From contig OX467089.1 of the NCBI GenBank assembly GCA_950106755.1, forward strand, positions 560,501-624,500: a stretch of DNA of 64,000 bases, written 5' to 3'. The first letter of the stretch is position 1; each line of letters begins with the position of its first letter. This stretch comes from Climacium dendroides. Lineage: Eukaryota; Streptophyta; Bryopsida; Hypnales; Climaciaceae. The position numbers and the translations under genes are program-made. This document shows positions 9,721-51,207 of the stretch, piece after piece. The notes beneath the pieces are model-generated. The model ran no database searches, was not told the origin of the DNA, and saw nothing but the letters and a program-made list of their open reading frames with translations.

Positions 9721-9762
9721 TGATTCGTTTCCGGATTCCAGATTCCCACACCTTTCGTGAAC

Positions 9763-20828: not shown

Positions 20829-21348
20829 TTCGGGTTGCTATCCGGATTACTGTAAAGGATCAAACCGGATCCGTGTTAGTTAGGGGATCTGTGGATAGGA
20901 AAATGGGTCTTCAGCCACTATAAGTCACGGAAGGAGTGGTGGGCCTACCACTTTCAAAAGCAAGCGGCAAACTCTCTGATGGTAAAACGAAGGTAAAACT
21001 AAACTGGGTACGGAAGGGAGGACCGGATCGGATCCGCCTAGGAGGGTACATAGGACCGGAAGTTGTAGGGGCCAGAATTGAGAAGTGAGTCCAGAAATCG
21101 GGGAACTAGTAAAACCAGAAGTAGGATACAGTCCGGTCGAAGCTTTCCGGTTGGTTTTGGATGTTCCGGTCGTTAGAGGTAGAACCGGAAAAGTAGAATT
21201 AAGGGGTTTAATTGAGTTTATCTCCTTGTTAGAGTTAGCTACTTCACAGGATCTCGTGGGTTCGATCTTTAGGGTCATTTTGTTATGCTCTAGAGTGATT
21301 TTTGTGAGTATAATAGGGAAATTGCTTACTCTGTGCTGCGACACTACC

Positions 21349-30381: not shown

Positions 30382-30389
30382 ATCTTCAA
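30382..30389. repeat. Left target-site duplication ATCTTCAA of the hAT element
   Basis: This 8-bp direct repeat is identical to 51200-51207 and directly abuts the CAGGG end at 30390. Confidence 0.8.
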
Positions 30390-30404
30390 CAGGGTTGTCG
30401 TGGA

Positions 30405-30640
30405 CGTGTGTCCGCGGCGAAATTGCGTCCAAAATCGGACGTCCGCACGTCCGGACCCTGCGGACGCAGACGGACGGTCCTCGGTCGCCGTCCTGCGGGC
30501 GGACGGATTGGCGGACGGGCCAGTCAGACGAGCGAACGGGCGGGCGGACGGACGGCCGTTTTTCTTGGCAGACGGGCGGACGGGCGAGCGGACGGAGTGG
30601 CGGACGGGCGGATGCGCGAACGGTTCAAGGGCCAAGGGGT
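30405..30640. repeat. CGGACGG island 1, left subterminal region of the hAT element
   Basis: This is a GC-rich block in AT-rich surroundings with many GGCGGACGGGCGG words on the + strand. It is open in several frames through composition only. Arrays of short motifs next to the ends are the usual transposase-binding subterminal repeats of hAT elements. Confidence 0.65.
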
Positions 30641-31019
30641 TTAGGGAGTCTGGGAGTGACCGACTGAGAGAGTGAGGGTTTGTAACTTTGCATTTTGCAA
30701 TTTTGCATGATTTTCAGTTTGTTTTAGGGTTTTTCTTACATATTTGTGAGTTTTGGCGCTTCAGAAATTTTTACGTGCTACACACTTGAAATTGAGAACA
30801 AAAAATAACACAATGAAGATTTCTTCAATATCACTTGGGACAAAATCCCCCCAAAATGATAGTTTCATTAATTTTTTCAAGATAATTTGTCAACCTTGTA
30901 CTACTATGAAATGCTCCGAGAACTAATAAATCTTAGCTATTCATCTCTCTAAATCGTAAGCATTTGAGCACCAAGTTCTGTAAATGTTCTTCATTCAAAT
31001 CCTTTCTAAATTTGAATGC

Positions 31020-31907
31020 CTAGGGGTGGTAATCACTATCTCCTTTCACCTCTGCCCCGCTACTGTACTCTCTTGATTGGAATCCATCATCTTCATCACT
31101 CATGGTATTCTCTTCATCGTCTGATGAAAGTATTTGAGTTTCCCCTCTTTTCTCTTGTACTGTTGAAGATACACGAGCTTTCTTAGGCTTGCCCATCATT
31201 TGCTCATTCTTTGCTTTCATCAAGGTTTTCCCTACACGTTCACGGAGGCGATCAACCGCTTTTCCTTTTCTCAACGGAAGTTCTGGAATAGACAAACGCT
31301 TATCAAGGGGGGGTTTTCCTGCATTCACTTTCTTCGTTGGAGAGATAGCAAACGGCTCCATTACTCGTTTGTTCTTTGCTTTAGAGGGTTCTTCCATCAT
31401 CATTGTCATCCCTGCCTTTCTCCCTTCTTCAGTGAATGCCTCTATAGCATTTGAAGATTCCAGTGTCGGATCCGCTAGCCTTGTTGAAGATGCTGGTAGG
31501 CGGTTTCCTTGCTTCTTTAACATTAAGGCCAACGTCTCATCTTCCTCGTCATCGGTGAATGAAGAAATCTGCAATCTTCGATTTTCGGTATGTTCTATTT
31601 CTTTCGAAATGATGGAAGCTCGTGTCGGACGTTGAGAACTTCCTGAACCCACCAAAGTAGTGCTTACACTATTAAATAGTGAGCGTGCACCTATTGGAGG
31701 AATGCTACGCGGTGGACGTACAAAACTTGTCATGTTTTCCTTTGTGCCTTGGCCACTGTGAAGCAAGTTCGGACTTCCACATTCTATCAAACGCGAACAT
31801 ACATTGTCTTGTGTCCCACTCGCTTCATGGTTTAGGCTACTTGGTTCCCCGTTGCTTTTGCTTGCCAATCCTCCTAGAGACTCCACGCTTATCTTGTCCA
31901 CATTCAT
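31020..31907 (-). CDS. C-terminal disordered extension of the hAT transposase reading frame
   Basis: This 295-codon frame overlaps the stop of the preceding frame by four bases (ATGA at 31907-31904). It is Ser/Glu/Lys-rich with nuclear-signal-like patches (KAKNKRVMEP, MGKPKKARVS) and an acidic end (SSDDEENTMSDEDDG). It may be a shifted continuation of the transposase, as the overlap and shared composition suggest, or a separate accessory gene. No known domain is visible. Confidence 0.45.
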   Translation of the reverse strand: MNVDKISVESLGGLASKSNGEPSSLNHEASGTQDNVCSRLIECGSPNLLHSGQGTKENMTSFVRPPRSIPPIGARSLFNSVSTTLVGSGSSQRPTRASIISKEIEHTENRRLQISSFTDDEEDETLALMLKKQGNRLPASSTRLADPTLESSNAIEAFTEEGRKAGMTMMMEEPSKAKNKRVMEPFAISPTKKVNAGKPPLDKRLSIPELPLRKGKAVDRLRERVGKTLMKAKNEQMMGKPKKARVSSTVQEKRGETQILSSDDEENTMSDEDDGFQSREYSSGAEVKGDSDYHP

Positions 31908-34391
31908 TTGCTCGCGGTCTCAACGTTGTCATTCTTTTCTAGTTGGGCCACCACTATGGATGGAGACCTACCGCTTCCAATCACTTCATCTATTTCGGAA
32001 GTTCTAGCATTGGATGCTATGGTTCCATTAGAAGTCAGGACTTGGACATTTGCGTCCTCTTCGTTTAGATTGAGGACCTTGTCACTACTTAGAAATCGAT
32101 TTCCATCTACAAACCTTGCTATGGAAGGTACGCCTTCATCGTTTCCACAATCATTATCGTCCATTGGAAAGTCAAACTCGTCTCGGTCATTGTTGCCCAT
32201 GTCATCATCATCCATATTTACTCTTCCAAACGGTTCACTTCCAAAATTGTATGTGTTGCCATCCAAATCTTCTTCTTCATTGAATATTGGGTCGTCCCAA
32301 TTTGCTTCTTGTCCATGTGCTTCATTCCCGTCCACACAAACACCTTCTTCTTCATCTTCGCTACTCTTGTCATCTTCGTTTGGTCCCTCCGATTCTTCTG
32401 AATCTACATTTTCAAGGTACCACTTCTTCTCATCCCTCTCCTTGGATGCGGCCAACACTCTTGAATTAGTGTACACATACACCAAATCCGCAGCTCTCTT
32501 TGTTCTCAACTTATTCTGAGATTTGTTGTGAACAAAAGAATAGCTACTCCAATTCCGTTCACATGAAGATGAAGATACCGGTTGGCCCAATATTCTCCTT
32601 GCAATTGGAGCAATGAGCTTCCCACATGCGCCTTCAAAATCCCACCAAGCGTGTGCCGATAATTTTTGTTCACTTGGATCCAATATGTTGTGAAAGGGAG
32701 GCTCCCTATGTCGAAACGCCATGAATTCCTTGACGACGTCCGCGTAGTCCGTAGGTTTACATATTCGCATGAGAACACGCTTGCATGCCTCGGTGGCCTC
32801 TGAATCGTCGGCTAGTTCTTTATCATGCAAAAGATAGGGATTCAAAAGAGCTCCTACATATTGGAGATCGGTCTCTACCATTTCCCATCTAGCGTTGAAT
32901 GCCTCCTTCAATGGTTTGGCAAATTCGGGGCTCAATAGAAAAGGCGGATTTTCTAACCCCCCCACATGCGACCGTATCTTCCTCATAATATGCAAAACTT
33001 TCCCTGAACATGGCGTCTTTGCATCTAAATCACGAAGGCCATACACAACAACGCCCATCAATTGTGCAACGCCTCCAGAAATGCTCATTGTTTATTATCT
33101 TCTTTGTACACCGAGACTTTGTACGGTTCTTCTTTTTCTTGTCATCCAATGTCCTCACATATTGTTCCCAACGCGGATCTGTCACACTCTGTTGAAGTGC
33201 TCCCTTCACTTTCAACAAGCGTTCAAGCGCAATGAAATTTGAAGCAAATCTTGTTTCGCTTGGCATCAATAAGCTGTACTCTTTTTCGTATGAATGAAAT
33301 ATTGCAAGCGGCATGTGCCGCTTTCTAAAAAACGTAAGAACCATACGAGCTTTGGCCACGACATCCGCCACCCATGCTTCCTTCCCCCAATCTTTTAGCA
33401 ACAAATTCAAGGCGTGCACCACACAACCTTGAAAAGAAATGTGAGGATATTTGTCTTTTATGATTCTACATGCTCGAGGGTTTACAGGAGCATTGTCCGT
33501 TGTTATTTGCACCACATTATGCGGACCCACCTCCTGTATGAATTTGTCCAAAATAGAGGCCAAGTACTCTGCGTTTTTTACGAACCCACTTGTGTCCACC
33601 GATCCCAAAAATTGCTCCCCTGCAAAAGATACAAGCATACAATTCACCAATGGCCGATTTGTAACCGAACTCCATCCATCAATAGACAAGGTTGCTCCAA
33701 ACTTTCTAATACTATCCTCGGTCCTCTTCTGCAACTTTAGCTTGACATCTTCTTTCGCTTCTTCTAGTAATTTGGTTCGTAGAGCGTCGTACGATGGTGG
33801 GCTGTATAGCTTACCAAACTCAGCTGTTTTCTTCACTGCTTCTTTGAAGGCCTCACTTCGAGCTAACGCAAATGGTATGTTGGCTGAATAGAAGAAATTG
33901 GCCCACAACGCATTCAAATTGCGTCTATCAGCTTGTTCAAACCCATCTACTAGCCGACTTTGTCTTCGTGACCGATTGATGGAAGAGGGTGGAGTTGGAC
34001 ATTGTTCACTTGATGTTTCCACACTTTGATGTACCCTTGAAGACGCACGATGAATTTCAGACGGCGCTGCACACGAGTCCTCTTGTGTTGAACGTGAAAA
34101 ATCCCTTCCATTTGAGGCATTGCTTGCAACCCTCCCTATGTTTTCACCATCTACATTGTCAAGGGCCGATCTTCGTGGAAATAACCCATTACAACCGGCA
34201 AAAAGAGTTCGAATTGACAAAGTCAATTTTGGACATATGCTTACCCCCCTGTCGCGAACACCGTCTTTGCCTTCATATCCAAGGTGGCTCAACATGCGAC
34301 ACTTCCGATTTGCAAACACCAAGTCACATGCCTTGCACTGCACTTTACCGCTTGATGGAACAACATACCAACCGGAAAAATCCTTACTCAT
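31020..34391 (-). pseudogene. hAT transposase (BED finger, DUF659, hAT C-terminal dimerisation), frameshifted
   Basis: The start is ATG 34391. The N-terminal frame (to 33030) has a BED-type zinc finger (VQCKACDLVFANRKCRMLSH) and then DUF659: SIDGWSSVTNRPLVNCM with the first catalytic Asp, VVQITTDNAPVN with the second, and FQGCVVHALNLLLKDWG. Near 33075-33090 the frame shifts by one base after NNEHFW. The second frame (33088-31904) continues the transposase core and reaches the hAT dimerisation domain (SAHAWWDFEGACGKLIAPIA, then SSSSCERNWS and TKRAADLVYVYTNSR), where the catalytic Glu is expected. A very acidic tail follows. The frame shifts again at 31904-31907 into a charged C-terminal tail ending at 31020. 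Together this is about 1.1 thousand residues, longer than typical hAT transposases because of the tail. Island 2 lies 0.3 kb upstream. Confidence 0.8.
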
Positions 34392-34704
34392 TGTGGAAAG
34401 CTCCGTTCAAGTTCAAGTCTAAGTTCAAGTTCCAATCTTGTCTTCAGTTCCAAATGTTTAGGTTCAAATCACCATGTTACATGTATCAAATATAGTCTGT
34501 AAGCAAAGCCTTGGAAACCAAAGCCCCCCTGTCCACTGAACTATGCATTACCAAGCAAGGGACACAAAGATTGCAGCTCCTAGCCCATGGAAATCTTAGC
34601 GTTCGGTTTCTCAGAAGTGCTTGTAAATGCCTTCTTCCTTGTTCTTATACTCCTAATTCGTTGAATGTTGTATGCCTTAGAAGTAACCGTTGCCAACGGT
34701 CAAA

Positions 34705-34875
34705 AAACCCGGCGGACGGGGTGGGCGGACAGGGCGGACGGATGGTCGGTCGGGTCGATCAAGGCGGCCGGCCGGTAGGACGGGGGGGGCGGGCGGGCGG
34801 GCGGACGGGTCGGACGGGGCTGACGGGCGGGCGGGCGGGCGGACAGGTCAGACGAGCGGTCGTGCGGACAGGGCA
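34705..34875. repeat. CGGACGG island 2, upstream of the transposase gene
   Basis: GGCGGACGG, GGCGGGCGG and GGGCGGACAGG words are repeated over about 170 bp. The island begins about 310 bp upstream of the transposase ATG at 34391 (minus strand). Confidence 0.65.
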
Positions 34876-34879
34876 GTTT

Positions 34880-35335
34880 TAGCCTTTTAGGGTGGTCAAT
34901 TTTACTTAGTTACTTCTTTACTTTGAACTTTTGGGCTCTTGGTTCAGTTGGTTGCATTCCATCCTAGGGATAACTAGATTACGAAAGTAGTAGAAAACAA
35001 GTGTTAAGTACTACAACAAAATTCTCAATCAACGACACAATTCACTAAAAATTGGGCATAACATGCACATTTCAAATTTTCAATAAAACTTAGTCCAAGA
35101 AAATGAATTTTATGATAAAAACATTATATATATATATATATATATTCAAATAAATAAATAATTACTTGCAACATGTTTTTCTTCACTACATGTATATGCA
35201 ATACAAAAAAGTCATGATGGACATGGTGGGCCACGTACAATACTACTAGTCATAAAAAAAATGAAGCCCATACTACATAATTATATCCTGAGTGCCATTA
35301 AAATACGACTACATAGGAAATTAAACATTTCACAA
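34880..35335. other. Short AT-rich spacer with (TA)n
   Basis: No gene is visible. A (TA) dinucleotide run lies at about 35127-35147. The region separates the transposase promoter side from the 3' end of the RING gene. Confidence 0.4.
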
Positions 35336-38004
35336 TTACCTCAACACACTATTATCTTCTTCGACATCATGAGATGTCCCCTCCTTCGCCATGAGTCTTC
35401 TACTTGTTCGACGAGGCACCGGTTGCGGACTATTTCCATGGCTGCTCCCTCTACGGTTAGCTTGTACCTGCATGTCAACCCTCTCAAATTGTCGTTTGGT
35501 TTCCGGAGAGTGGTCATCCTCTTCTTCAATCTTCCGTTTATTCTTCTTCTTCGGAGATAGCTCCACTTCGTGGGCCCTCAAAGCCCTCACAGCACAATCT
35601 ATGTCATCCATCAGTTGTTTTATCATTTCATCCTCGCTTTTCATCATCCAAGTTTGTTCGCCTCCCTCTCTTAGATACTTCCTCCACTTGGTTATAATGT
35701 CCTTCATGTTCATGTCAAATGCCCTTGCAACATCTTCCATCTTATGCTCTATAGATGATTTACCGTTTAGGTCCACCACAGAACGAACTCTTGCTACTTC
35801 TTCCAACTTCGACAAAATGAGGGCCTGCCCTATCAAATCCGTATTGTAGCCCGCAAATTGCTTTATGACTTTTGGATCACGCTCAACCTCCACCAAGAGG
35901 TCATTTGAACCCTCTCTCTTCCATTCCTTCTCGAGAATTCGAAAGAACTTTTGGTGCTGTGTGCTTCAATGTCCGCCCATGCTGCGACAGAACAACTCTC
36001 GAGCCTCGCTGTTCTTAATCTCGAAGGCACGCAACTCAACCTCCACGTCAGACGTCATCCAAAAGAATTTATCTTTGGTGGGAAATGGGCCATCGCATAG
36101 CTCATATATTTGTGATCGAGCATCCCACTTCATTGGTTTCCCCCAATGCAAATAGTTTTGAAATTTGTACGGCTCTTGGTCAAGTGGAAGGTTCCATCGA
36201 TTGTATTCGTGCCCCGTAGGCATACGGTACAAAATCCCTAGCATTTCATACAGCCTTGGACTCAGAGGAATACGGCATTCGGGACAGTGGCGTTGAAATT
36301 CCGCCAATCTTTGAATGCAAAACACATGGAATGTATGGCGACACTGTCCCAATGCTATAGCTCCTTCGGGCCCAAAACAACCTTGGCAAAGAGAACAATG
36401 ACCCTCCAAGATGGGAGTATTTGGAAAACTTCCTGGCACAAGTTCCTTCTCATGTTGCTGGAAGTGAGCTGACAACGTGCCATAAGGGACCCATCCTTCC
36501 TCCGCTTCCAAAGTCCAATCAATGTTCTCTGTATCATAGGTCTTTCTGTGGTTTAGCCGCTCATACATCCTATCCATGTTCCCCCAAACCGTAAGTTTTA
36601 AATTAGGGTCCTTTCTTTCCTCCTCCAACTTCTCCACAAAACGCTCATAAGAACTCTTGACATTCTCGTATGCTGTGTCTGATTGCAATGCATACCTCAA
36701 GAGCCCGTTCATGAGTCCGGATGATACTGAGGAATGATCTTGTAGTTGTCGCGTCCACATCATCCACCGTAAATCCGCATTTTCCTTTGGAAGGATTTCA
36801 CTTAGTACCCCTACTTCCATCATTCGTTTCATTGTTGATTCAGCCTCATTCTTTCCTCGAACTGCCAAGTCCAATTGATGCCTTAACTCTTCAACTTCCG
36901 AATTTTGTGATTGCATGGAAGCATCTTCAAATGAGGGGAGAACTATGGATTTTGGACTCGGAATGCGCTGTCGGAGTTCTACGGTCCCATCCTCAGCTTT
37001 GCCCTCGTCAAGAGGAAGAGATAGTTGATCGCTCTCTTGTATTGGTTCACTTGCCTCTAATAGCCCTATTCCGCCAGGCGATTGTTGACCTGCCTTCTCG
37101 TTCTGTAATGTCCACAATGTTTTGCGATGCTCTTCTAACATCTCTTTGCATGTCTTCAACTCCAACACCAACTTCTCATTCATAGCCTTGAGATTCTCAT
37201 TCATGGCCTTCAAATTGTCATTCGTTCGCTTCAAAGTCTTGTTATTTTTCTTGACACTCTCATAGGCATTACCCAAGAGCTTCAAGTTTGGGGTCGGCCT
37301 TCAATACAACGTGTTGTATTTGCTCTCCAATATCTCATACTTTGTCTTGAGGTCATCATGATCTTCTTTGGAGTAACGCACCTCCTTCAACTCCAAATTC
37401 TGCTGTTCCAAAAAAATTTTATGCTTAAGGTCTTCCAACTTCTCGTCTTGTAGTTTGTCCGCAAACTCGACAAACTTTCTAAAAGCCAAAGCACCATGAA
37501 GAACTGTCGCAGCACAGAGTAAGCAATTTCCCTATTATACTCACAAAAATCACTCTAGAGCATAACAAAATGACCCTAAAGATCGAACCCACGAGATCCT
37601 GTGAAGTAGCTAACTCTAACAAGGAGATAAACTCAATTAAACCCCTTAATTCTACTTTTCCGGTTCTACCTCTAATGAACGGAACATCCAAAACCAACCG
37701 GAAAGCTTCGACCGGACTGTATCCTACTTCCGGTTTTACTAGTTCCCCGATTTCTGGACTGACTTCTCAATTCTGGACCCTATGTACCCTCCTGAGCGGA
37801 TTCGATCCGGTCCTCCCTTCCATACCCGGTTTAGTTTTACCTCTGTTTTACCATCAGAGGGTTCGCCGCTTGCTTTTGAAAGTGGTAGGCCCACCACTCC
37901 TTCCGTGACTTATAGTGGCTGAAGACCCACTTTCCTATCCACAGATCCCCTAACTAACACGGATCCGGTTTGATCCTTCACAATAATCCGGATAGCAACC
38001 CGAA

Positions 38005-38292
38005 TCACAGGTCACACAAAGACCCCCCGTACGATCCTCTCATACTACAACGACCTTGACATTGATCTGTTCCGCACGAAGCTCGATGGCTACAAGTGAA
38101 TCTGTCCGTTCCAACACCCACGAAAGTTCTTCTGTTAATCCACAATGGTGGCAAGACCTCACAGGAATCAGGATACTCGACCGGATTTCCCACCCAGGAG
38201 TCTAGCGCAGCTAAGGAATCCCTCCCTATCTGCCTAGCCTGATCAACGAATCTCTCACCCGGAATGCTAAACTTCTGTAGCTGCTGAGGCAC
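38005..38292 (-). CDS. Small Cys-rich ORF, copy 2
   Basis: This is the counterpart of 20541-20828, 95 codons, with the same Cys-rich tail and two changed residues. It shares the same uncertainty: non-ATG start and conservation probably due to recent copying. Confidence 0.25.
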   Translation of the reverse strand: MPQQLQKFSIPGERFVDQARQIGRDSLAALDSWVGNPVEYPDSCEVLPPLWINRRTFVGVGTDRFTCSHRASCGTDQCQGRCSMRGSYGGSLCDL

Positions 38293-38512
38293 TGGAATCC
38301 ACTCCTAACTCTTCATAACCTACTCACATGTACCTAGAACCGGAAACATACATCAAGGGGAGAAACTCTACCAACACCTCCGTACTCACCTTCCTATTCT
38401 GACTCCGTGCACTCTTGCCAATACTCGGGAAAAATACACAAAAGTTAGTTTAAAGGAAAGTACACAAGGAAATGCCAAAAGAACTCTCTCCTCGTCTCCA
38501 GCTCAAAGACTG

Positions 38513-38521
38513 TTTTATATA
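38513..38521 (-). promoter_or_regulatory. Second TATA box of copy 2
   Basis: TATATAAAA on the minus strand, about 1 kb from the element's CA end, is the counterpart of 20312-20320. Confidence 0.4.
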
Positions 38522-38637
38522 CAAAAAGCAAAAAACAAAAAGTGAATACATGATTTCCGCCTCTAAAGGCGCTGACAATCCGGTCCTACCTTATCCTAAC
38601 CGGATTCTATTCCGGTTCCTATCTATAAGTCCTATTT

Positions 38638-40308
38638 TTACAATCCTTCCTGTTCCGTCTCATACACTCGGGATCCAATGGTAGGGCTCTCATCAGGTCT
38701 CTTCAACTGCTCGAAGACCTCATTTAGATTCCGGTTTCGTTCTCCATCCGTAGGTAGAACCGGATGTTCTTCCTCAGCTTCCGGGGAGTCCAAATCTATC
38801 GGTTGATGTCCGGTCGAGGGCGTCTCCTTCTTTGCCCTGCTTGACTGGGGCGTCTTGTCCTTTCCCGGCTCCTGAGCTACGTCTTCCAGAAACAAGTCCG
38901 GAAGAGAAATTTCTGAGAGCCGGACCGGAATTTCTGTCAACTTCTGGCTACTCTCCACGATCCGGTCCGCTGACTCCCGTGCCTTGGATAGGAGCTTCTC
39001 CATCTGCTCCTCAAAATCGGTGAAGATGTGCACCACCTTGGTTCCGGATATCTTCTTGTCCTTGTGCACCTCCTCTTCGAACAGGCGCGCCTTGGTGATT
39101 GCAGCTCCGGGTCCTCCAAGCACGTCCTTCACTTCCGCAGCCAACTTCTTCATTTCCTCCGCCATCTCCTTTGTCGCGGTGGCGTTCTCAAACAACGCGA
39201 ATAGTTCGGCCTTGAGGGTGTCCACCTCATCGTGCTGCCGCTTGCTTTCCTCCTTCATCTTCCGGAGCTCTTCCGGATTGATAACACTCTCAGCCACCTT
39301 CTGCGGCAATTGACTGTCCGGTTCCGCTCCAATTAATTCCGCGATCTCCCCGAGCGCCCGCTTCTTAATTTCCCAATCCGCCCGGATTTCGCAGAGGATC
39401 CTAACCAACTCGTCGAACGGATCTTTGGTCCCGGATCCGGATGCCACATCCGGTCCAGTTGGAGTCTCACTTCTGCGCGGACGCGGATGTCCCGGGGGCG
39501 TTCCTCGATTCCGAGTCGGAGTGGTCTTCTGCCTCTTGTTGGGAACATACGGTTCCTCCTCTTCCTCTTCTTCTTCTTCCTCGGTTTCGTTTCCGGAATC
39601 CACTTCTTGGTTGGACTCGGATTCGCCGTACTTCATGGTCCGCTCCTGGGCCTTCCACACCTTCAGCTCCACTTCCGTCAGCAGTTCCTGTTGCTGGTAG
39701 AGGTGGTACACATAAGGGCACAGTGGGGTAGCCCTACTTCTCCCCACTCTTGTAGTAAGCTGGAACACCAGATCAAAGAAGATTCGGCCCCAGTCTACTT
39801 TCCGGGTTCCGCTCAGCGCTCCAAAAATCGTATTAGCCAAGGTGATAGTCACCCTGGTGGGCTTTTCCGGATGCAAAACCAGAACCAGGAACTGGAGCAG
39901 ACGTCGCTCCCGGTCATCAAGGCAGTCTTCGACCGCGTAGCCGTCCTTCGGATTTACTACGCTTCCGAACTTGCCCTGGACGAAATCATCCTTCCGGTTG
40001 GCAAGGCCGAGTCCTCCTGGCCGGAATCCGTATACGTCCCGCCACAAAGCCTCGGTCCATTGGACCGGATTCCCTCTCAAGGTGTTATCGAATTGATTCG
40101 ATATGCCACTCAGGATTTCTCTAACCATCCTCTCATCTTTGAAACCCCAAGGTTTCAAAGCTAACCCCTGACAACCCATCAACGACAAATCCTCTCTAAG
40201 CTCTCCCTATTCCGGTTCCTTGGTCGGCATGACCGGAACTACTTTTCTAAGCTTTACTTTACTCGGGGGCGGGGTGTTAGAACCTCTCTTCCGGTTCAGC
40301 CGCGGCAT
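38638..40308 (-). pseudogene. Gag-like / putative plant transposon protein, copy 2, one TAG stop
   Basis: The frame is 556 codons, starts MPRLNRKRGSNTPPP and is equal in length to copy 1. It carries TAG at 40207-40209, where copy 1 has CAG (KEPEQGELRE). At the site of copy 1's stop it reads CAG (FVQGKF). Each copy is thus broken once at a different codon. The longest unbroken part begins MSLMGCQGLALKPW at 40188 and could still give a nearly complete product if translation began there. Domains are as in copy 1. Confidence 0.6.
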
Positions 40309-40619
40309 GAGGGTAGTTCTACCCGGTTTTCACTCTCTACAGTCCTAAAAAGGGAGCATGCGACACTCAGATGTTCCGCTCCGCCTGTAAACTACCCTAC
40401 CGGCGTGCTCACACTCTTAGCTTCTCACATATCCGCTCGCACTCAAGGTCTCACCTACTCATGTTCAGAGGAGATCTCTCCGTCTCACACCCCTCTCTCA
40501 CTTCCGTACCCTCTTGTACTTCCTCTCCCTTGCCGTGGTCAACGATAGAAACGTCAAGCGCTAAATCAGGACACAACAATACGTGGAAATCCAAAGACCT
40601 AAAAATGGGCAAGGCCAGG

Positions 40620-40628
40620 CTTTATATA
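40620..40628 (-). promoter_or_regulatory. First TATA box of copy 2
   Basis: TATATAAAG on the minus strand lies about 310 bp upstream of the ATG at 40308 and is conserved with copy 1. Confidence 0.5.
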
Positions 40629-41221
40629 GTCCTGACGCCCTGGACTGTCTTTATGACCGGTCGGATATCTGGTCTGGTTCTTGACATCCGGTTATTTCCT
40701 AATCCGGTCAACAAGATTCCGGTTGGAAATACTATCCGGTTGAACATCTAATCCGTTCCGCTTTGACCTAAAACCGGATTAGTTCCGTAAGGTCCTTTTG
40801 TGACTATTTTTGGATTTATTTTTCTCTCTAGATGAATCCGGATACCTTTTTCTAATTTCCGGTTTGCTCAAAAAGGTAAATAAATAAAAATAAAAAATAT
40901 GAGTTGTCACAAGAACGGATGGTGTCATTTTCGTAAATGTATCAGTTATTTGCGCAAGAGCAGGCGTCAATACAGCCACAACTCTAGCTGTACATGATAG
41001 AGAATACGCCGTTCTAAATATCTCGCCAAATCCTGCTGTTGAATTGCCTGAAGTGGAGCTGCGTCCTTCATTTGTAGTGCCACCTTCATTAGGATTTCCT
41101 CCTACATGCTCAGGGCCACCTTTGTTTATAGTGCTCCCTTCATTTCCGCCATTTGTTGCTTCTCTCTGAATTTCAAATTGATTCCATCAGAGGGAACACT
41201 GCAACAAGTTTTCCATCTCTT

Positions 41222-42364
41222 CTAGTGGAGGCATCTTTTGAGATCCTCTGGGCCCAACAAAGCTAGCAGCGGATGATCTTGGATAATCGGGGTCTCTTTG
41301 TCGTTGTTTACAGCAGCCTCGTCTTGAGAGTCCATCCTTACATCTGTCGGTTGAGTTGGATGCTCTTCATTTTGGTTTGGTGAAGTCCGAATTGCATTTT
41401 CAGGTCTGGACAGTAGGCTTGGTTTTTTCCTTGATTTAGGAGACGGAGGGACATAAAACATGATGTCTTGTGCTGTGTCTGCTAAAAACCAGTCAATACA
41501 AGCGTGAGCCTCCTTCACGTCTTGAATGTCTTCTCTATCTTCAATGTCTTTTATAGGATCCTCTTCTTAGTGCTTCTGTGACATCGATGTAGATCCATGT
41601 TCTGTTGGCCGAGGGAGCTTCATTGCAACGTTGCTTTCTGGCACCCCTTCTACCACGTTTTGTGTAGGGTTCAAATCCGTCGGTGGAGTCAAAAACACCT
41701 CTCCCTCCACATCGTCCACAAGACAAGTGCTTCCTTTTGTGGGGTCCCCCATACAAACCGGTTCTACCGCCATTTTCTTTCCATTCAGTACTTCCGTACG
41801 ACGCACTTGGATTTCAAGAGGGATCTGAATTGATTCTACAGCATCCTCTAATGCTTTCTTTTTTTCACTTGCTTCAGGAAGTTGCGCCTTCGGAAGAAAC
41901 ATATCAGGGATATGTTTCTGACGTCTGCCAATCGCAAGTAGCAATGTCGCTATCGTAGGATACGTACTCCAATCCACTTGACGGCCCAGTATGAGTTCAG
42001 CGTAAACCATGCCTGCCAAGCTATAGTTAATTTTGCCCTTGTTCATAGCCTTCTCCGGAAATAAGGCCTTCCACACCTCCATCGAACGGTGCACAAAATG
42101 ATCATTGAGGCAATTCAATGGTTTAAAACAATATTCACGGGTGTGAAGAGGGTGACACTCTCGAGGCCACAACTTCCCAATGTGATACATTTTCACGTAT
42201 TTGCAGCACAATTTAGAGGTCCAATACTCCACATCCTCTTTTTCCCAACCCGTCTCAGCCTTGATGCTGACGTCATCCAAAATGTCAAACCGTAGCTCAT
42301 GACCAACGCCCTTCGGCTTTGACTTCTTCTTGCCTTCAGTTGCAGCACTACTTGCCCCCGCCAT
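41222..42364 (-). pseudogene. hAT cargo gene of unknown function (paralogue of 45528-46634)
   Basis: ATG at 42364 starts MAGASSAATEGKKKSKPK. The first 265 codons are open to a TAA at 41567-41569, after which the same frame continues (EEDPIKDIEDREDIQD, then ACIDWFLADTAQDIMFYVPP) to a TAG at 41222. A conserved core is shared with the gene at 45528: GWEKEDVEYWTSKLCCKYVK, then YHIGKLWP, and later AGMVYAELILGRQVDWSTYP. The Cys and His residues in SKLCCKYVKMYHI could bind zinc, but no known finger fits. Island 3 lies 260 bp upstream. The frame of the RING gene follows closely on the same strand with an offset, so both could be parts of one larger gene. Function unknown. Confidence 0.5.
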
Positions 42365-42627
42365 GACTGCTTGATTGTCGAGTACTCACTTGCAATTTTA
42401 GAATGGAAATTTCCAATATATAATCCCCGTTCTCTCAAAATATATAATGTGCTTCACTGTCTCCAAACGTATGTAAGTAACCAAGGACCAAAATCCAATG
42501 TAGTATGATCAAAATATGACCCCCACTCTTCACCACATAGGAGCAACTAACGCGTGAAGCAATAGTAGCACATCCGACATGGCAGTGATTCCCAAATGGA
42601 AGAGTGAAAGTGAGGAAATGTGTGTTG

Positions 42628-42870
42628 GCCGTCCGCCAATATACCCGTCCGCTCCCAGAGCTAAAAGAGGCCCGGGACCGGACCTATTCCGGACCACGCG
42701 GACGTGGCCCGAGCCGGCGGACAGGCGGACGGAGCTGCCCCGTCCGCCGACCAAGCGGCCGGCGTCTAGGTCCGCCCGGCGGACGAGTGGACAAAGCTAC
42801 CCCGTCCGCTGACCAAGCGGACGACCCGACTGCGTCCGACCGCCCCGTCCGCCCCATCCGCCTAGCCCGT
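42628..42870. repeat. CGGACGG island 3, upstream of the gene at 42364
   Basis: CCGTCCGCC and GGCGGACGG words in both orientations fill about 240 bp, starting 264 bp upstream of the ATG at 42364. Two related subunits can be seen (CCCCGTCCGCCGACCAAGCGG and CCCCGTCCGCTGACCAAGCGG differ by one base; shown in part). Confidence 0.65.
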
Positions 42871-43654
42871 CGCCTATTATTTTGAGGCGTCCAAATTTTT
42901 GACAATTTGGCATGAAGCCTAGGATTCTTCTCGTCTGCCTTTACTTACTGTCATTTTTTGGGGGTCAATTAAAGTTTCAGCATCCTATGCTTTTCTCATT
43001 AACCCAGAAAATAAGAAATAGACAAGTTATAATCAGATTTTAAATAATCATTTAGAGTTCTTTGAAGTTTACAATGAGACCCTAAATCCTAGAACCCTAA
43101 AACCCTCAACTCTTAGTCTCCTACATTTCAGATTACGCCATTGTTTTGAGCAAATTGTAAATTTGTAATATTCATTTGAAATTGTATGCATACAAATTTT
43201 AACTAGATATAAAGGATATTATTTTTCTATTTATTTTTTCATCATGTAGGATATTTCGAAGGGAAAGAAAAAAACAAAAACATGATCAATATTAGTGATG
43301 AAGTGAAACGTTATAATTCCCAATTGACCAAATTGAGATGGTGCTACAATCACAACAATTACTTCAAGGGGTTTGGTTTTGGTTCTAGTTTTGAACGTCA
43401 TGGACAATTTCCATTGACTTCAAGGTGTTTTGTACATATGGACTTATAGAGAAGCCAAAAATGTATATAACTTATGCATGTTACACATTGCAACGCCATG
43501 TTTGTACTGTATTTTGTAATGCCCTTTTTTGATTAGGATTGTTTTAAAAGTAAGGATATACAAAGAGTGTAAGACTTCACAACATTTCTAAAATTAGTAG
43601 AACTGTAAAATCCTTACTCATTGTGAAAAGCATTATAATCTTCTAATCCATAAA

Positions 43655-43730
43655 AGATATGTTTTTGTTTTTGTTTTTGTTTTTGTTTTGTTATATATAT
43701 ATATATATATATATTTATTTATTTATTTAT
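43655..43730. repeat. Compound microsatellite (TTTTTG)n-(AT)n-(TTTA)n
   Basis: Three simple repeats are directly joined: TTTTTG units, then about eleven AT units, then TTTA units. Confidence 0.8.
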
Positions 43731-44703
43731 TCTTGGAAAATTTGAAACGTGAAGCAATAAAAAAAATTTAGTTTCTATTTGTATAATGTATAAGTTCTTC
43801 TTTTATCTAAGCCTGGGTTTATACTGTGCCTAAGGCTGGATGAAAGTCCGGCCGGATTTGCCTTCGATCCATTCTTCAATCCAGCCCCAATTTTTTCCAT
43901 CCGGCCCTACTTAATCTAAAGTCTAAACCCCTTGGGCCGGATTTTCAATTCATGTGCTCTTCAATTTTATCAAGGCTCAATTAAAAAACGTCAATAAAAA
44001 TATGCATGTTTATCTTTTATTTCTTTTTTAATTAAAAACAAAGATTTTTTTCTTTTGTTTCATTTTTCTTTTTGTTTCTATACATTTTATTTCTAAAATA
44101 CAAAAAGAAGTTTATTTATTGATTACTTAAAAATAAAATAAAAATTTAATATTTTGGTTTTCCTCTTATATAGAATATGCATTTGTAATCAACATGTTTA
44201 ATGCTAAAACATAGGTACTTTATTGTAGTCACTTAGATGATTTTCCTTTAAAATTAAATTAAGTAAATCCATAAGGGAGTTGCTCTAAGAACACCCGTGC
44301 TCTAAGAGTGATCATGACGGAGAGGTACATTTTGCTTTAGTGAATGTACTAGCACATTTTAGGACATGGTCACTTTTAATGACCGTTGCCTTTCAACTTA
44401 TTCGCCCTCCATAACTAATTACAAAATGATTTAAAAAATATGAAGGAAATCAAGTCACCAAAAAAATATGAGGATGAAGGGCCTAACGTGCATTTCAAAA
44501 TCTACTCTACAATTTTTTAAATGAATCTTTAATGTGGTTTTTTCTCCAAGAGTTAGTGTATTTGAGGCTCATTTCCAAAAGCCCTCAACACTATGAAAGT
44601 CAAGTTTGTGATGGAAACTCTTGTACAAAATCTTGAATAAGAAAATCATAATCAATCATTTTGAAAATTGGATTTTTGATGCTAAAGTTAGATTTAAAAT
44701 AAA

Positions 44704-44705
<2 letters not shown>

Positions 44706-44740
<35 letters not shown>
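44706..44740. repeat. (AT)n microsatellite
   Basis: About sixteen AT dinucleotides occur without interruption. Confidence 0.85.
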
Positions 44741-44742
<2 letters not shown>

Positions 44743-45017
44743 TACTAAGAATAGCAACTTGGTTAAGTATTATTAGACTTAGAATCTCTATTCTCATAGA
44801 TAATTTTCTTTCTTATTTAGTATTTAGGACGCTTTAATTCATTTAATTAAGATTTGTTATGAGATTTCAATTTGTTTTCATCAATTTTTTTTGAGATTTC
44901 AACTTATGTCTTGTTATATATTCTGAAAATTTCACTACATGCCATATTTATTTTATTTTTTAATTAATTTTTAACAAATCTGACTCGAGCATGATGAACT
45001 TCAATGTGTATAAGAAC

Positions 45018-45335
45018 GGCCCGTTCGTCGTCCGCTCGTCCGTCGTCCACCTATCCGCCTGTCCGCCGTCCACCTGTCCGCCCGTCCGCCGTCCGCTGTC
45101 CGTCCGCTATCCGTCCGACAGTCCGCCGCCCGCTGTCCGTCCGCCACGCGGTCAGAGCGTCCGTCCGCGGGCTCCATCCGATGCAGTCGTCCGCAGTCCG
45201 TCGAGGCCGTGCGATTGGACGCACCGGGGCATATTGCCCGTCCGATCTGGCGGTCCGCCCGTCCGCCCGTCAGATTTGGGCAGTGATGTCAACATCGGCG
45301 GACGGTATAAAGAGGGGCGCGGACGGCCCATTCCG
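45018..45335. repeat. CGGACGG island 4, upstream of the gene at 45528
   Basis: CCGTCCGCC / CTGTCCGTCCGC words are dense on the + strand, ending about 200 bp before the ATG at 45528. Relative to its gene the motif has the same orientation as island 2 relative to the transposase gene. Confidence 0.65.
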
Positions 45336-45527
45336 CGCAGTTGTTTCCCTTGCGGAGTGGGCAGATCCAGCGCCAATTGGTATCTGTGAGCCCCTTCCGA
45401 CTTGGAGCGTGAACAACTGTGAATGAATTAACTTAATTTTTTGTAATCTCTTCATCACCTTCTCAATTATAGAAATTATAAACTTCTCACTCAAACATTG
45501 CATTCGGTGCGGAAAAGAAGGATTACC

Positions 45528-46634
45528 ATGGCTCCAAAAGGATTTCCCAATCCGCTGAAGAAGAGTACAAAGGGAAAATCACAAGACATGGATTGGGATG
45601 CCTACTTCAACCACTTTTGTGTGGCTGAAGAGGGATGGCAATACGAGCCCAAAGCAATATGGATTTGCACAACATGCCGAGAGTATGTGAAAATGTCACA
45701 CATTGCGAAACTCTAGCCAGTAGATAACACGGTTGTATTAGAGAGACAAGTAAGACGGTGGGAAGGTCCCATGAACACTTGCAAGAGTGAACATTTCAAG
45801 CAGAGATACGAGGAGATTTGGGCATCTTGTGGTCTAGGTGCTTCCAAACCAAATATCATGAACTATTCCACCATGGCAATGATTTGGGCGGAGATTGTAC
45901 TCCAGAAAGATGTGGATTGGCGTACGGTGCCTGCAAAGGACAAGAAGACCAAATTGAGCTGTGACAAAGCGGTGATAGACACCAATTGGGTTGGCCCAAG
46001 CGATTGCATGCCGGAGTGGTCTAATCGGGGTCAATTTGGATTTCCTCCGGAACCATTGCCAGATGCAGAGGACAATGATGATGATGACGAAGAAGACTTA
46101 CCACCTCCACCTCCACTTCCACAAAGGCATGTACGTCGAGAAGAGCGCGAAGACTTGGACTTCCAAAATCAATTGTGAGAGGCAACAAGAAATAGTATTT
46201 TGGATCAAGGTCGCCCGCGTCAACAACGGTCACCACCTCGTCATGATCATGATGTGCGTTGCCCGCAATATGGAGGAGGAAGTTTGCATTTTAGCCCTGG
46301 CCCCCACGATGACTTCCAAAACATACGAGGAAGCCATGAAAGCACAAGGTTCACGGACTACGGTGGATCTCAATATGGTGGGTCGCAATTCTATCCGGGG
46401 ACGGGAGGGCCGGACTCATATGGGCCTCGTGGAAGCTCATACTACACCGGCTCAAGCGAACGAGGGACAAGAGGGGCCAAGGCAAATGCATCACCTCCTC
46501 CACCTCCACCATTTGGGGGTCCATACTTCTCCGATTACGGACAAGGAGGAGGGTCTGGCGGATATGGGCGATGTGGTGGCTTCGGTCCCACACCCGAAGG
46601 TCGAAATGACAATAGTAGTTCGGATTCAGAATAG
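45528..46634 (+). pseudogene. hAT cargo gene of unknown function (paralogue of 41222-42364), two in-frame stops
   Basis: ATG 45528 starts MAPKGFPNPLKKSTKGKSQD. The 368-codon frame ends at TAG 46632-46634, with an in-frame TAG at 45714-45716 and TGA at 46176-46178. At the TAG, CREYVKMSHIAKL*P aligns with CKYVKMYHIGKLWP of the paralogue, so Trp was lost. The second conserved block is MIWAEIVLQKDVDWRTVP. An Asp/Glu run and a Pro run (DNDDDDEEDLPPPPPLPQ) lead to a low-complexity Gly/Ser/Tyr-rich C-terminus (DYGGSQYGGSQF) of the kind found in phase-separating or RNA-binding proteins. Function unknown. Confidence 0.5.
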
Positions 46635-46639
46635 AGTAT

Positions 46640-47460
46640 AATGTAGTTTAACTATTTAAGGGTAGAGTAGAAGATATCTTTTGACTTATTCGGAGGTTAT
46701 GGATTTACTATTATTGTTTAAATGTATTTTGGTGACCACTTTTGTGACCATTAGTGGTCAATGATGTCACTATTTAAAACTTTGAACATGCACATCTATT
46801 GAACATGTTTAGTTGTAGTATCAAAAATCTCTTCTTGGAAATGCTTGACAGTGTTTTTTCTTTTTTAGATTTAGTGCAAGGGTACCGAATGCAATGTTGA
46901 CTTTCTGTATTCTTTACCTAAGTTGGAAATGAGATTGAAATGCAATTAGTTCTGGAAAATAAATTAGAATCCAAATTCATTTGGAAGAATTGTATAATAG
47001 TATTGTGGATTTTGATTAGCCCTAATGTAATTGAGCTTATACACATTAAGCCTTCCAATTTTTTGTGTCACGAAGTTCAATGGTTTGACTTGCAAGAAAT
47101 ATTTGAACTCTTTTTTGCAATTTGAACACCCTCATAGGTAAACATTATAATTTTTAACTCCATAAGGGATATTGTTGTGCTTTCTTTTTTTCCATAATGT
47201 CTAGCATGTCTAATTTGAATTTGTACGATTAAAAACTCGAAATTCCAAGAAAATAATAAATGTAATGAAAATATTGACATTTCTTTAGAAGTAAAAATTT
47301 CAAGAAATTGAAGAAAGTTGAGAAGAAGCCTTGGGTCTATTTTTTTAATTATTAGGCATTGAAATGCCCAAATGCCCAATTCCTCCCAAACAAGAAGACC
47401 TACATGAAGCTTATTGAATGAAAAGGGGGAAAAATCACCCTAAAAATGAGAAGGTAGAAA
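46640..47460. other. AT-rich spacer, no gene seen
   Basis: Only short frames occur, without coding character. A similar text, TTGAATTTGTA(C/T)GATTA with a nearby TATTGTTGTGCTTTCTTTT, recurs in the spacer at about 50410-50470. This suggests that the two spacers descend from a duplicated gene 3' region. Confidence 0.45.
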
Positions 47461-47463
47461 TGA

Positions 47464-47800
47464 AGCGGACGATCTAAAAATCGCCCCCTCTGGACCGTCC
47501 GATCACGCAGACTGTCCGTCCGCCTGATCGGATGAGCTAGAGGGGGCGCACGGCCACCCTGTCCGCCCGATCGGACGGGCCAGAGGGGGCAGACGGCCAC
47601 CCCATCCGCCCGATCGGACGGGCCAGAGGGGGCGGACGGCCACCCCGTCCGCCCGATCGGACGGCCTCTGTTCGACCGTGCGGACCGGACGAGGCGGCCG
47701 CCAACCTTAGACCGTCCGCCCGATCGGACGGCCTCTGTCCGCTGTAGGACTGGAATGAGGCCGTCCGCCTCATATAAGACAAACGGACGGACCGTCCGCT
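47464..47800. repeat. CGGACGG island 5 with a 43-bp tandem repeat, upstream of the kinase-like gene
   Basis: GATCGGACGGGCCAGAGGGG units recur with a period of 43 bp (starts near 47526, 47569, 47612, 47655). Each unit carries the palindrome CCGATCGG and CCGTCCGCC/GGCGGACGG words. The island ends about 60 bp before the ATG at 47862. Confidence 0.7.
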
Positions 47801-47861
47801 CTCACTTTTGCCTTCCCCCTTGCATGCAAGAGAGAGCGGAGAGCTAGTGGTTTGACCTCCA

Positions 47862-49387
47862 ATGGCTCCTTTCTTTGGGTGGGTAAGAGTCTAAAATTTT
47901 GGGGTAACTCTTGCCAAATTTTTTATAAAACTTTGATGTTCATCATTCTACCGAGTTATCAACATACCGAGGGCGAAGAAGGCTTCCAAGGAGCCGAAGG
48001 GAAAAGAAGAAGCCCCCTCTATTCAGTGGACAAGGGAGAATCCCTCGGAGAGTTGCAAAGCATTCTTAATCGAATTGATTGTGAAGTTTTATGAGACAGA
48101 GACTACAGTGTCTCTTGACACTAAATATGTGCGATATGAAGAGGACTGCATCGAGAAATTCTTCGTGGATATGAGGCAGAGGATGTTGAACGCCTTGCAC
48201 GTATCGCAGTGGATTGATGAAACGGAGAAGAGGAATTTCTCCAAATTTCTTGACAGCAAGGTGCATGATGCATTATGGAATGCTTCGATCATTTTGGATA
48301 AATATTGGAGGAAGAAACGCGAAAATGATGAAGCCTTCGAGCATGTCATTATGAAAGCGGATTTATTCACCAAAAGGTGCCAACCATTTAAGAGGAGGCA
48401 GAATAGAGCAGGGTCAATTGGTTGGTGGACGAGCAAGCTTGGAATGGACCAAGCACAAAATACACGTCGCCTTCTAATAGCCCTTCCGGAAACGGCCACG
48501 GTGATTCCCGTAAATAACAAAATCATGCGGGGTGGCTATGCTACAATTCGGAGAGTGCGAATAGAAGGATGTGGGGAGATTCATCCATCATGGGAGTTTG
48601 CAGCAAAGATGTCTCTCCAAGAAGGTGAACGACCTGCTTTTGCAAAGATGGAACACAATACTGAGACTATGGCAGTAAGGATTCCACATGCTGGAGTGAT
48701 ACGTTTTTTTGCAGTGCATTCCAAAAAGAATGAAGGATACTCATTCTGGTGGAACGGCGGTACATTACGTGAAATGATGCGTCGGGATGACGACTATCCA
48801 GACAATATAGCCCTTCGAGTGTTGTATGAGCCGCGTATAACAGAAGAAGAAATCATTGCTACTAAAAATCTGAAGCGATTTAGAGCCAAACGCGTGGAGC
48901 TTGCATGGGCATTACTGCACATCATGAATGCGGTGCACATCGCTGAACATCTCCACAATGACATTTCTCCGGACAACATCATGTTTCATTTTCCTGAAGA
49001 TGAGTCCCGGGTTTACATTGGAGTTTGTGATTGGGGGATGACTACAGTGTTGAGCGAGCCTATGAAGTCGTTGTATACATTCACATCAACAGCTGAAAAG
49101 GACGAAGCTATAAAGAGGAGGTGGTGGGTGGATCCCAGTATTACTTATGTACACGGAAGAGATGCGGATGTGCAAAACATCCCTTCTCTTTCCATGCTAT
49201 CCGAGCAATATGCTGTTGCTAAATTAGCTCACATGTCAAGTACCTCCATCCACAATTTGCACAGGTGTTTGATACTTACTTGAAGCGCGTTCAGAACAAA
49301 GAGAGTACTTTGGCACAAGTCATCTTCCGTTTTAGTACTTCATTCAACTGGCCTGTTCCAGATGAACACTTCCGTAGTTCATATTGA
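47862..49387 (+). CDS. Protein-kinase-like gene carried by the hAT element
   Basis: A short first exon MAPFFGW (47862-47882) ends at a GTAAGA donor. The frame is then open from about 47937 (RAKKASKEPKGKEEAPS) to 49283. Kinase landmarks in order: a glycine-loop-like IMRGGYATIRRV, FAAKMS with a candidate ATP-binding Lys, the catalytic loop HNDISPDNIMF (H-x-D-x4-N kept, with Asn for Arg of HRD), and CDWGMTTV (DWG in place of DFG). APE and the C-lobe are short or diverged. A one-base frameshift near 49225-49250 changes SSTSIHNL into the frame HPQFAQVFDTYLKRVQ, which ends at TGA 49385-49387. The key Lys, Asp, Asn and Asp residues appear to be kept, so it could be active. It is the least damaged cargo frame. 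Role unknown; it could modify the transposase or a host factor. Confidence 0.6.
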
Positions 49388-50820
49388 AGTTCAAGAATAG
49401 TTCATATAAGTATGTAGGCTGGTAGTATGCATAGATGCCAAGTAGTAATGTAGTATGTATGCGAATTACATAGTTGCATAGCATATGTGCACCATTTTGA
49501 TTTTTTAAGACCAATGAATGCCAATGTAGTTGGACTTTTATGTGCCTTTGTAATTGATGAGGATATTTTAATTGATAATGATTTTTAAAGTGTGTGAATT
49601 GTCCCTATCTTTTGTCATTGTTGGTTTGCAATTTTGCATAGAAAAGTCTAAAACCCTACAATTACGGAAATTGTGATTTTTTAAGTTGGTATTTGCAAGA
49701 TTGGGAAGTTTTTGTTTTAAATTGTATGGTCTTCCAATTGTTTAATTTGCCATGTATGGTTGAAGATATTCAATTGGACAATGTATTATGTATAATTGTA
49801 AATTGTCTTCTAGATTCTAGAAGCATGGTTTTTTGTTTGGTATCAATGGTGTGTTGTTAATTTTTTGCATGCAACGAGTTTGTCGGCTTCATTAAGATGT
49901 TAAAAAAAAATAGTAATTACCCCCTAAATGCTTGAGGACCCAAAATATTAAATATGGTGTTTGCAAAACTTAGAAGTTCAGTAAAACCTAACTATTTTTC
50001 ATCATTTTAGTGAGGTAATAATTTTGGGAAATTCTTTTTGAAGTCTACTTTTGGCTCCAGAAGTCCGATCTTGCAATTAAAGGACAATGATTTTTCTGAA
50101 AGAGATATTATGCAAGGGTACCTTGTGCAATCTTGACTTTTCTTTTGTGTTAAGAGCTTTTGGAAATGAGCCTCAAATACAGTAGGTCTTGGAGGAAAAT
50201 TCATATTGGAAATTCATATTAAAAAATTATAGAGTAAATTTTGCAAAGTTGTAAATTGATTGGGGTAGTGCAAGTTTGGCCCATTAACCTCATATTCTTT
50301 GGGTCCCCAACATTTTAGATTTGCCTTGCCAAAAAGGCTTCAACTTTTTTTTGTGATTTTAACAACATCATTGTCAAATGTTATAATCTTTCACTGTACA
50401 AGTGATATTGTTGTGCTTTCTTTTCCTATGCAATCTCTAACAAGTCTAGTTTGAATTTGTATGATTACAATTCCAAAAAAATTGATACATCTTACCAAAA
50501 TGTGGGCTCTTTGTTCAATTTAGAGCAAATTAAAGGAAGTTTAAATTTGAAAATAAGGCTTCGGCAGGTAGGGGTTACAACATCCTATGGTTATTTGGAT
50601 GATTGAATTTGTTTGAACCATCAACCATTGTTTTCTTGGGCCAATTGAAGGCCCAAATGCCTAAAAAAAAATGGACTGCACCAAATCTATAGGTTAAATT
50701 TGAAGAAAAATTGGATGATAATGCCAAATTGCTCAAATTTGAAAGAAAAAAAATTGGATGAAATTGCGCACATCAAATGTAACTCATCTAAACCTACACC
50801 GAAGTTTACCCCATTTTCCG
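49388..50820. other. AT-rich 3' spacer between the kinase-like gene and the right end
   Basis: No gene is seen. The stretch is AT-rich and carries fragments similar to 46900-47400, for example TATTGTTGTGCTTTCTTTT and GTTTGAATTTGTA. Confidence 0.45.
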
Positions 50821-50824
50821 CCAG

Positions 50825-51190
50825 ATGCCCCGATCGGACGACCCGTCTGCCCCGTCCGCCTTCCCGTCCGCCTCCCCGTCCGCCCTCCCGTGCGCCTCTC
50901 GTCCGCCTCCCTGTCCGCCCTCCCCGTCCGCCCTCCCGTGCGCCTCTCGTCCGCCTCCCTGTCCGCCCTCCCCGTCCGCCCTCCCCGTCCGCCCTGCCGT
51001 CCAGCTCCCCGTCTGCCCTCCCCGTCCGCCCTGCCGTCCGGCTCCCCGTTCGCCCTCCCCATTCGCCGTCCTGTCCGCCTCCCGTCCGCCCCGTCCGCCT
51101 CCCCGTCCGCTGGATGGTCAGAACGTCCTATGTTGGCGGACGTTCGGGAACCGGCGGACGTAGACGCTGGACGTCCGTCCGGACGTCCAT
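50825..51190. repeat. CCGTCCG island 6, right subterminal region of the hAT element
   Basis: Dense CCGTCCGCC / CCCTCCCCGTCCGCC words, partly in a ~50-bp tandem arrangement (50885-50975), lead to the CAGGG-type right end. The motif orientation is opposite to island 1, as expected for inverted subterminal repeats. All frames are open here because of composition only. Confidence 0.7.
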
Positions 51191-51199
51191 GTAACCCTG

Positions 51200-51207
51200 A
51201 TCTTCAA
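51200..51207. repeat. Right target-site duplication ATCTTCAA of the hAT element
   Basis: This direct repeat is identical to 30382-30389 and directly follows the ...AACCCTG end at 51199. Confidence 0.8.

Follow-up and report, generated by a model that had tools for sequence, protein, structure and literature searches.

A probable high-copy, four-gene hAT transposon of about 17 kb in the moss Climacium dendroides

Elements of the hAT superfamily are textbook one-gene transposons, and the typical one has a single transposase gene within a few kilobases (kb). How should one then read a 20,810-bp piece of moss DNA that has hAT-like ends, a hAT transposase and several further genes between them? 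The piece in question lies at positions 30390-51199 of a stretch of 64,000 nucleotides from Climacium dendroides (contig OX467089.1, here C38, 560501-624500). This whole stretch is called the window. The best explanation overall, to which we give a probability of about 70%, is that the element is a damaged copy of a high-copy moss hAT of about 17.35 kb, which has four genes and in which the accessory genes belong to the core.

That the element is a member of the hAT superfamily follows from its structure: transposase domains, 8-bp target-site duplications and short terminal inverted repeats are all present. An earlier reading of the window, the first-pass annotation, had described inverted CAGGGTT ends and a perfect duplication, ATCTTCAA, and both are found at the positions listed below. 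It had also placed a DUF659 transposase between them, and Pfam matches to DUF659 (E = 1.4e-38) and Dimer_Tnp_hAT (E = 5.1e-08) are indeed seen in the minus-strand frames from 34406 to 31904. Gene B is interrupted by a later insertion with AAGAAC on either side. When this is subtracted, 20,810 - 3,406 = 17,404 bp remain, in agreement both with the giant hAT of about 17.4 kb before insertion that had been proposed and with the 17,353 bp of an uninterrupted copy. The features of the element are as follows, with the strand in brackets where one is assigned and the basis last.

30382..30389: target-site duplication, left copy, 8 bp, ATCTTCAA; same letters as 51200-51207
30390..30414 (+): left terminal inverted repeat, begins CAGGGTTGTCGTGGACGT; sequence read
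30436..30606: left subterminal array, CGTCCG/CGGACG, 12 motifs; motif count
31020..34406 (-): gene A, hAT transposase (DUF659 and Dimer_Tnp_hAT); Pfam and frame comparison
34713..34816: array upstream of gene A, CGGACG, 4 motifs; motif count
35336..42385 (-): gene B, RING-H2/coiled-coil protein; frame and Pfam comparison
37505..40910: later insertion in gene B, foreign to the element, 3,406 bp; comparison with an uninterrupted copy
42630..42851: array upstream of gene B, CGTCCG/CGGACG, 10 motifs; motif count
45029..45325: array upstream of gene C, CGTCCG/CGGACG, 14 motifs; motif count
45528..46634 (+): gene C, about 395 amino acids (aa) in its open form, paralogous to the N-terminal region of B; sequence comparison
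47466..47798: array upstream of gene D, CGTCCG/CGGACG, 14 motifs; motif count
47937..49387 (+): gene D, protein kinase, open over 504 aa in certain other copies; Pfam and model
50835..51185: right subterminal array, CGTCCG/CGGACG, 19 motifs; motif count
51175..51199 (-): right terminal inverted repeat, begins CAGGGTTACATGGACGTCC read on the minus strand; sequence read
51200..51207: target-site duplication, right copy, ATCTTCAA; sequence read

The genome (412.6 Mb in 123 contigs) was searched for further copies. Copy 1 (C41, 22,669,913-22,686,297; 16,385 bp) is colinear with the window, has ATTCAAAT on both sides and is 97.5% identical to the window where the two can be aligned; one base of the CAGGGTT at its left end is altered, and part of gene B is missing. 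Copy 2 (C39, 21,729,979-21,747,331; 17,353 bp) is uninterrupted, flanked by ATTTGAGC and 94.7% identical to the window by the same measure. Its frames are open for A (1132 aa) and B (1215 aa), and D is broken.

In uninterrupted copies the open reading frame at 41567-42385 and the RING frame form a single frame of 1215 aa. A count of five genes was therefore abandoned in favour of four. Of the cargo described at first, the RING-H2 and kinase-like proteins hold, as does gene C from the supposed pair of paralogues; the other member of that pair, 41567-42385, is the first part of B.

Is the four-gene set found elsewhere in the genome? In the protein searches the best places were scored, namely 92 of 721 first-look candidates for A, 95 of 683 for B, 150 of 684 for C and 94 of 910 for D, where a kinase match in two pieces counts as one place. 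All counts of places, pairs and sets given below refer to these best places listed. Within 30 kb and in the order of the window, A is paired with B at 73 of 92 places, B with C at 82 of 95 and C with D at 85 of 150. The reversed order is seen zero times for each of the six gene pairs, and the chance expectation is below one for every pair. At least 47 complete A-B-C-D sets, the window included, are present on 14 contigs, and none of them share a gene. When the limit is set at 60 kb there are 57 A-D pairs, with A and D 10.3 kb apart in the median; another 4 pairs are on the same strand or otherwise ordered. One complete set is located on C4, a contig whose length fits the short chromosome 4, called likely U or V in PMC11503002.

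The sequence between and beyond the genes is retained as well. Among 29 kinase loci other than the window, 27 retain window sequence upstream into gene C and 28 retain it downstream to about 50675. Two loci (L016 and L030) are interrupted upstream by other repeats, and for L003 the downstream match stops at 49552. In the copies examined we see the same four genes, or damaged versions of that set. No varying cargo was seen in them, and the earlier description of the element as "gene-collecting" is therefore unsupported.

The next question is whether such sets have moved as one unit. Compact sets, with a span below 13.2 kb, make up 34 of the 47; copy 1 is one of these, and the other 33 were tested for ends in stretches of 701 and 801 bp at the predicted positions. 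Both ends are present in 26 of the 33 further copies, the left end in 27 and the right end in 30. The consensus is CAGGGTTGTCGTGGACGTGCGTCCG for the 27 left ends and CAGGGTTACATGGACGTCCGGACG for the 30 right ends. The terminal repeats are short: CAGGGTT is perfect in the consensus, and after a few differing bases TGGACGT follows on both sides.

For the 26 copies with both ends, the flanking 8-mers match at 8/8 in 18 cases and at 7/8 in 5, and all 23 matching duplications are distinct from one another. In a control where left and right flanks were taken from different copies, 1/650 combinations match at 7/8 or better. Matching 8-bp flanks at so many sites are the trace of repeated transposition of the whole unit. 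A search for other copies with both ends, the same gene order and 8-bp duplications had been proposed at the outset, and it succeeded, with at least 47 sets and 23/26 flank matches. The contrary outcomes named with it, that no other copy shares both ends with the cargo or that each end pairs with a different partner elsewhere, did not occur.

These flanks also bear on two other readings. In the first, the locus is a composite of two or more neighbouring or nested hATs that by chance have a single pair of ends around them, and every gene module was formerly an element in its own right. It is true that each gene has a GC-rich repeat block like the blocks at the ends, that the sequence following C is related to that following D and that C is paralogous to a portion of B; modules may have fused to form the element long ago. 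However, the 23/26 further two-ended copies with matching flanks have moved as one unit, and in copy 2 there is no CA[AG]GGTT or its complement within 600 bp of the four internal blocks. The duplication counts (23/26 versus 1/650) speak against a composite as the present state, and we find the reading as a whole very improbable.

In the second, an assembly artefact or a chance pairing of unrelated ends has produced the locus. We found no point in its favour. The many separate copies have differing flanks, the duplication counts speak against it, and the assembly is based on PacBio data with a quality value (QV) of 67.4, as given in PMC11503002. This candidate was rejected, its probability being close to nil.

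Three deviating cases should be mentioned here. The complete set at L072/L073 (C33) has unmatched flanks, and its right flank lies in gene B sequence of another copy; it is a nested or recombined copy. C40:27043575-27058547 has a pair of transposase matches about 14 kb apart, in opposite orientation and with the same score and frame length, which suggests an inverted duplication. Finally, A is found without B within 30 kb at 19 of the 92 places, and 6 of these 19 are also without C and D within 60 kb among the matches listed. For three of the six a stretch of 10 kb was read: one runs into gene B, and the other two are cut off, the right end being absent from the stretch.

What the four genes have in common, apart from their order, is a short motif. 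The element in the window contains 76 instances of CGTCCG/CGGACG versus 5.4 expected from a Markov model, and the remaining 43 kb of the window contain 4. As many as 73 of the 76 motifs fall into six clusters, with arrays of the type CCGTCCGC; either end of the element has one cluster, and every gene has one upstream of it. Copies 1 and 2 have six clusters each, in the corresponding places. We infer that these arrays are a putative binding motif of the transposase or of a chromatin factor, used in transposition and in promoter control.

All four genes are damaged in the window copy. Gene A is broken into three frames of 458, 395 and 299 aa, and in some copies it is a single frame of 1132 aa. 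The 1132-aa protein exceeds the curated cut-offs for both DUF659 (E = 4e-37) and Dimer_Tnp_hAT (E = 3.2e-07), and its N-terminus has a CxxC...H pattern that is BED-like by eye. Five residues, D243, D304, C328, H331 and E620, are invariant among 12 aligned proteins (copy 2 and 11 of 17 relatives). D243, D304 and E620 are candidates for the acidic catalytic triad of hAT transposases, and C328/H331 for the CxxH motif.

Gene B is split in the window by the later insertion and broken further, and it forms one frame of 1215 aa in some copies. In the alignment of B proteins the N- and C-terminal parts are strongly conserved, relatives are 31-49% identical, and a RING match is found in 8 of 8 proteins (E <= 0.01). 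Gene C, which has two stop codons in the window, is 40% identical to the N-terminus of B over 103 columns (E = 2e-16). There are also related stretches (73%) downstream of C (47058-47234) and of D (50294-50470), and a third in inverse orientation at 44490-44699, between B and C. Such stretches beside B, C and D are a hint that the gene modules arose by duplication. No relationship between D and B was found by profile comparison.

In the window, gene D has lost about 64 bp at 49222-49229, and its first frame stops at 49283; the deletion is shared by none of the 29 other loci examined. K224, E243, D342, N347 and D365 of the D protein are invariant in the window protein and in the 34 aligned of 78 relatives. 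A structure model has a predicted local distance difference test (pLDDT) score of 85.7, and its best matches in PDB are protein kinases, with E around 1e-7. The product of gene D is likely an active kinase.

Outside this genome the databases contain 78 relatives of D, 17 of A and 7 of B. Two of the D relatives bear the name of another moss, Ceratodon purpureus, with 48% and 43% identity. For one A and one B relative the longest contig is equal, 17,649 (source ena), and the same is true for another A and B pair, 8,444 (source jgi). A further close relative of the kinase, P0006 (63%), is filed publicly under a metagenome-assembled genome (MAG) of Bacilli and looks like moss contamination of that bin.

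Within the genome the picture is one of decay. G>A and C>T together account for 236 of the 282 changes in 30 copies of gene D, an excess from which we infer decay of methylated cytosines. It appears that a few source copies gave rise to most of the others, which are now decaying.

Could the accessory genes then be passengers? An ordinary hAT might have captured three host genes once and been amplified passively, the genes doing nothing for the element, as in fungal hATs with a histone H3 sequence. The near-neutral change of the kinase copies within the genome and the broken frames in most listed copies fit such a history, and there are known hATs that have captured a single host gene and number in the hundreds of copies (PMC6710886). 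Host genes from which the three could derive were not found, although no proper search for them was possible. On the other hand, the B relatives keep the RING match in 8 of 8 proteins at 31-49% identity, the aligned kinase relatives retain the catalytic residues, there is an apparent linkage between A and B in two other sources, and a motif array is located upstream of all four genes. Further, full stop-free frames persist, for A at 7 of 92 places, for B at 6 of 95 and for D at 14 of 94. We rate a role as core helpers above passive capture on three grounds, namely that the proteins are conserved from source to source, that A seems to be linked to B and that the motif is shared; passive capture appears unlikely.

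It should be noted that a number of observations weigh against the preferred reading, a high-copy four-gene hAT with core accessory genes. None of the 7 places with a full A frame has full stop-free B and D partners, and among the listed places no copy was seen in which all four frames are full-length and stop-free. In the 30 copies of gene D the ratio of nonsynonymous to synonymous changes (N/S), relative to expectation, is 1.16 for singletons and 0.87 for shared changes, i.e. near neutral. For A and B pairs from three copies it is mildly under the neutral expectation, and one B pair is near it. With N/S near neutral within the genome, the case for accessory function rests on the conservation between species.

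Some of the domain assignments are similarly affected. The RING match in the B protein of this moss and the kinase match of gene D are both significant but fall short of the curated Pfam cut-offs, with 24.8 bits versus 31 and 22.6 versus 31.7. For the domain shared by B and C the model is poor, with a pLDDT of 60.8 and no match in PDB at E <= 0.001. Two other organisms probably have A and B side by side, as judged from equal longest-contig figures and not from sequence. No kinase relative has a longest contig equal to that of an A relative, so that linkage of C or D with A beyond this genome was not seen.

The flanks of 3 of the 26 copies with both ends do not match. A check for empty sites, also proposed by the first-pass annotation, gave none among 19 joined flank pairs compared with the available sequences; the only matches that span a join are for L058/L059, and these are that copy's own flanks, 77% alike. 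Lastly, the structure supports cut-and-paste by A well, but no movement of the element was observed.

How does the element compare with known systems? In DUF659, the hAT dimerisation domain, short terminal repeats, 8-bp duplications and subterminal motifs it is like other members of the superfamily (Ac/Ds, Tol2, Hermes), and it differs in its size of about 17.35 kb and its four recurring genes. Its transposase, the short repeats at its ends and the 8-bp duplications are in keeping with ordinary cut-and-paste integration, and for this reason the complex life cycle that had been suggested is unsupported. The autonomous plant elements MuDR and En/Spm also encode a second protein and have sites for the transposase both near the ends and near promoters; they differ from the moss element in belonging to other superfamilies and in having two products, none of them a RING protein or a kinase.

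Large size and several genes might also indicate something virus-like or a hybrid, and Teratorn is said to combine a transposon with a herpesvirus. However, ten frames of the window contain no viral structural or polymerase family at the Pfam cut-off, and the sole match named after a virus is non-significant (E = 0.25) and is located in the later insertion. The A and B alignments gave no relatives in 2.9 million viral contigs, and B is without relatives in phage records or genome_contigs. A viral or hybrid nature is therefore highly improbable.

Among elements with extra sequence, the hATs of Pseudocercospora fijiensis are alike in DUF659, in 8-bp duplications and in carrying such sequence in hundreds of copies. 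The fungal element is about 9.5 kb, with one captured H3-like sequence, repeat-induced degradation and no dimerisation domain found (PMC6710886). In contrast, the moss element has three accessory genes, which keep full frames in some copies and have relatives that are conserved. ToxhAT/ToxTA of wheat-pathogenic fungi is a 14-kb DNA transposon with cargo, formerly called a hAT; it has 2-bp TA duplications and 74-bp repeats, is present in a single copy and has been reclassified by its authors as likely Tc1/Mariner (PMC12506042). The moss duplications are 8 bp and of varied sequence, unlike the TA of Tc1/Mariner. Starships are giant and have many genes too, with a DUF3435 tyrosine recombinase at one edge (PMC12506042), and no DUF3435 captain is found in the ten window frames scanned. 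In listings from the open-access literature, with Repbase and subscription papers outside the search, we found neither a giant moss hAT nor a hAT with a RING and a kinase gene. The whole word hAT is absent from the text of a review of giant transposons (PMC6431247).

A few observations concern the insertion in gene B and the rest of the window. Self-comparison of the 3.4-kb insertion finds no long terminal repeats, and its 522-aa frame has no Pfam match above cut-off. A 97% relative is present at window 17923-21343 in opposite orientation, and related sequence adjoins other copies of the element (L030 and L040). Elsewhere, at 9675-11996, the greater part of a DUF7869 domain is spread over two neighbouring frames (E = 1.5e-14 and 7e-18), and a frame on the other strand at 13136-13885 resembles them by eye. 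The stretch at 9675-11996 is probably another transposable element.

Taken as a mechanism, the preferred reading of a four-gene hAT with core helpers would work as follows. The transposase would bind the CGTCCG-type arrays near both ends, excise the element and paste it elsewhere, and the arrays upstream of the four genes would subject these genes to a common control that depends on the transposase or on chromatin. B would be a likely RING E3 ligase, C a truncated partner of the N-terminal domain of B, and D a likely active kinase. Rather than random cargo, B, C and D would be core helpers that modify the transposase, host silencing, or host repair and cell cycle. Selection would keep the accessory genes in source copies, and most daughter copies would decay.

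A bolder proposal, which we would back at somewhat less than even odds, is that the element represents an old and distinct moss lineage of giant multi-gene hATs. Here the transposase, the RING ligase, the partner with the B domain and the kinase would all be core genes of transposition, wired together by one motif at the ends and at four promoters, and high copy number would be reached through the ubiquitin and phosphorylation systems of the host.

A high-copy hAT of 17 kb with four recurring genes shows that large size is possible for cut-and-paste elements in this superfamily, and that they can have likely regulatory proteins. Should host silencing or the transposase be what the accessory genes act on, the element would be a natural system for studying how a DNA transposon overcomes the control of its plant host, and a possible source of hAT vectors for large cargo.

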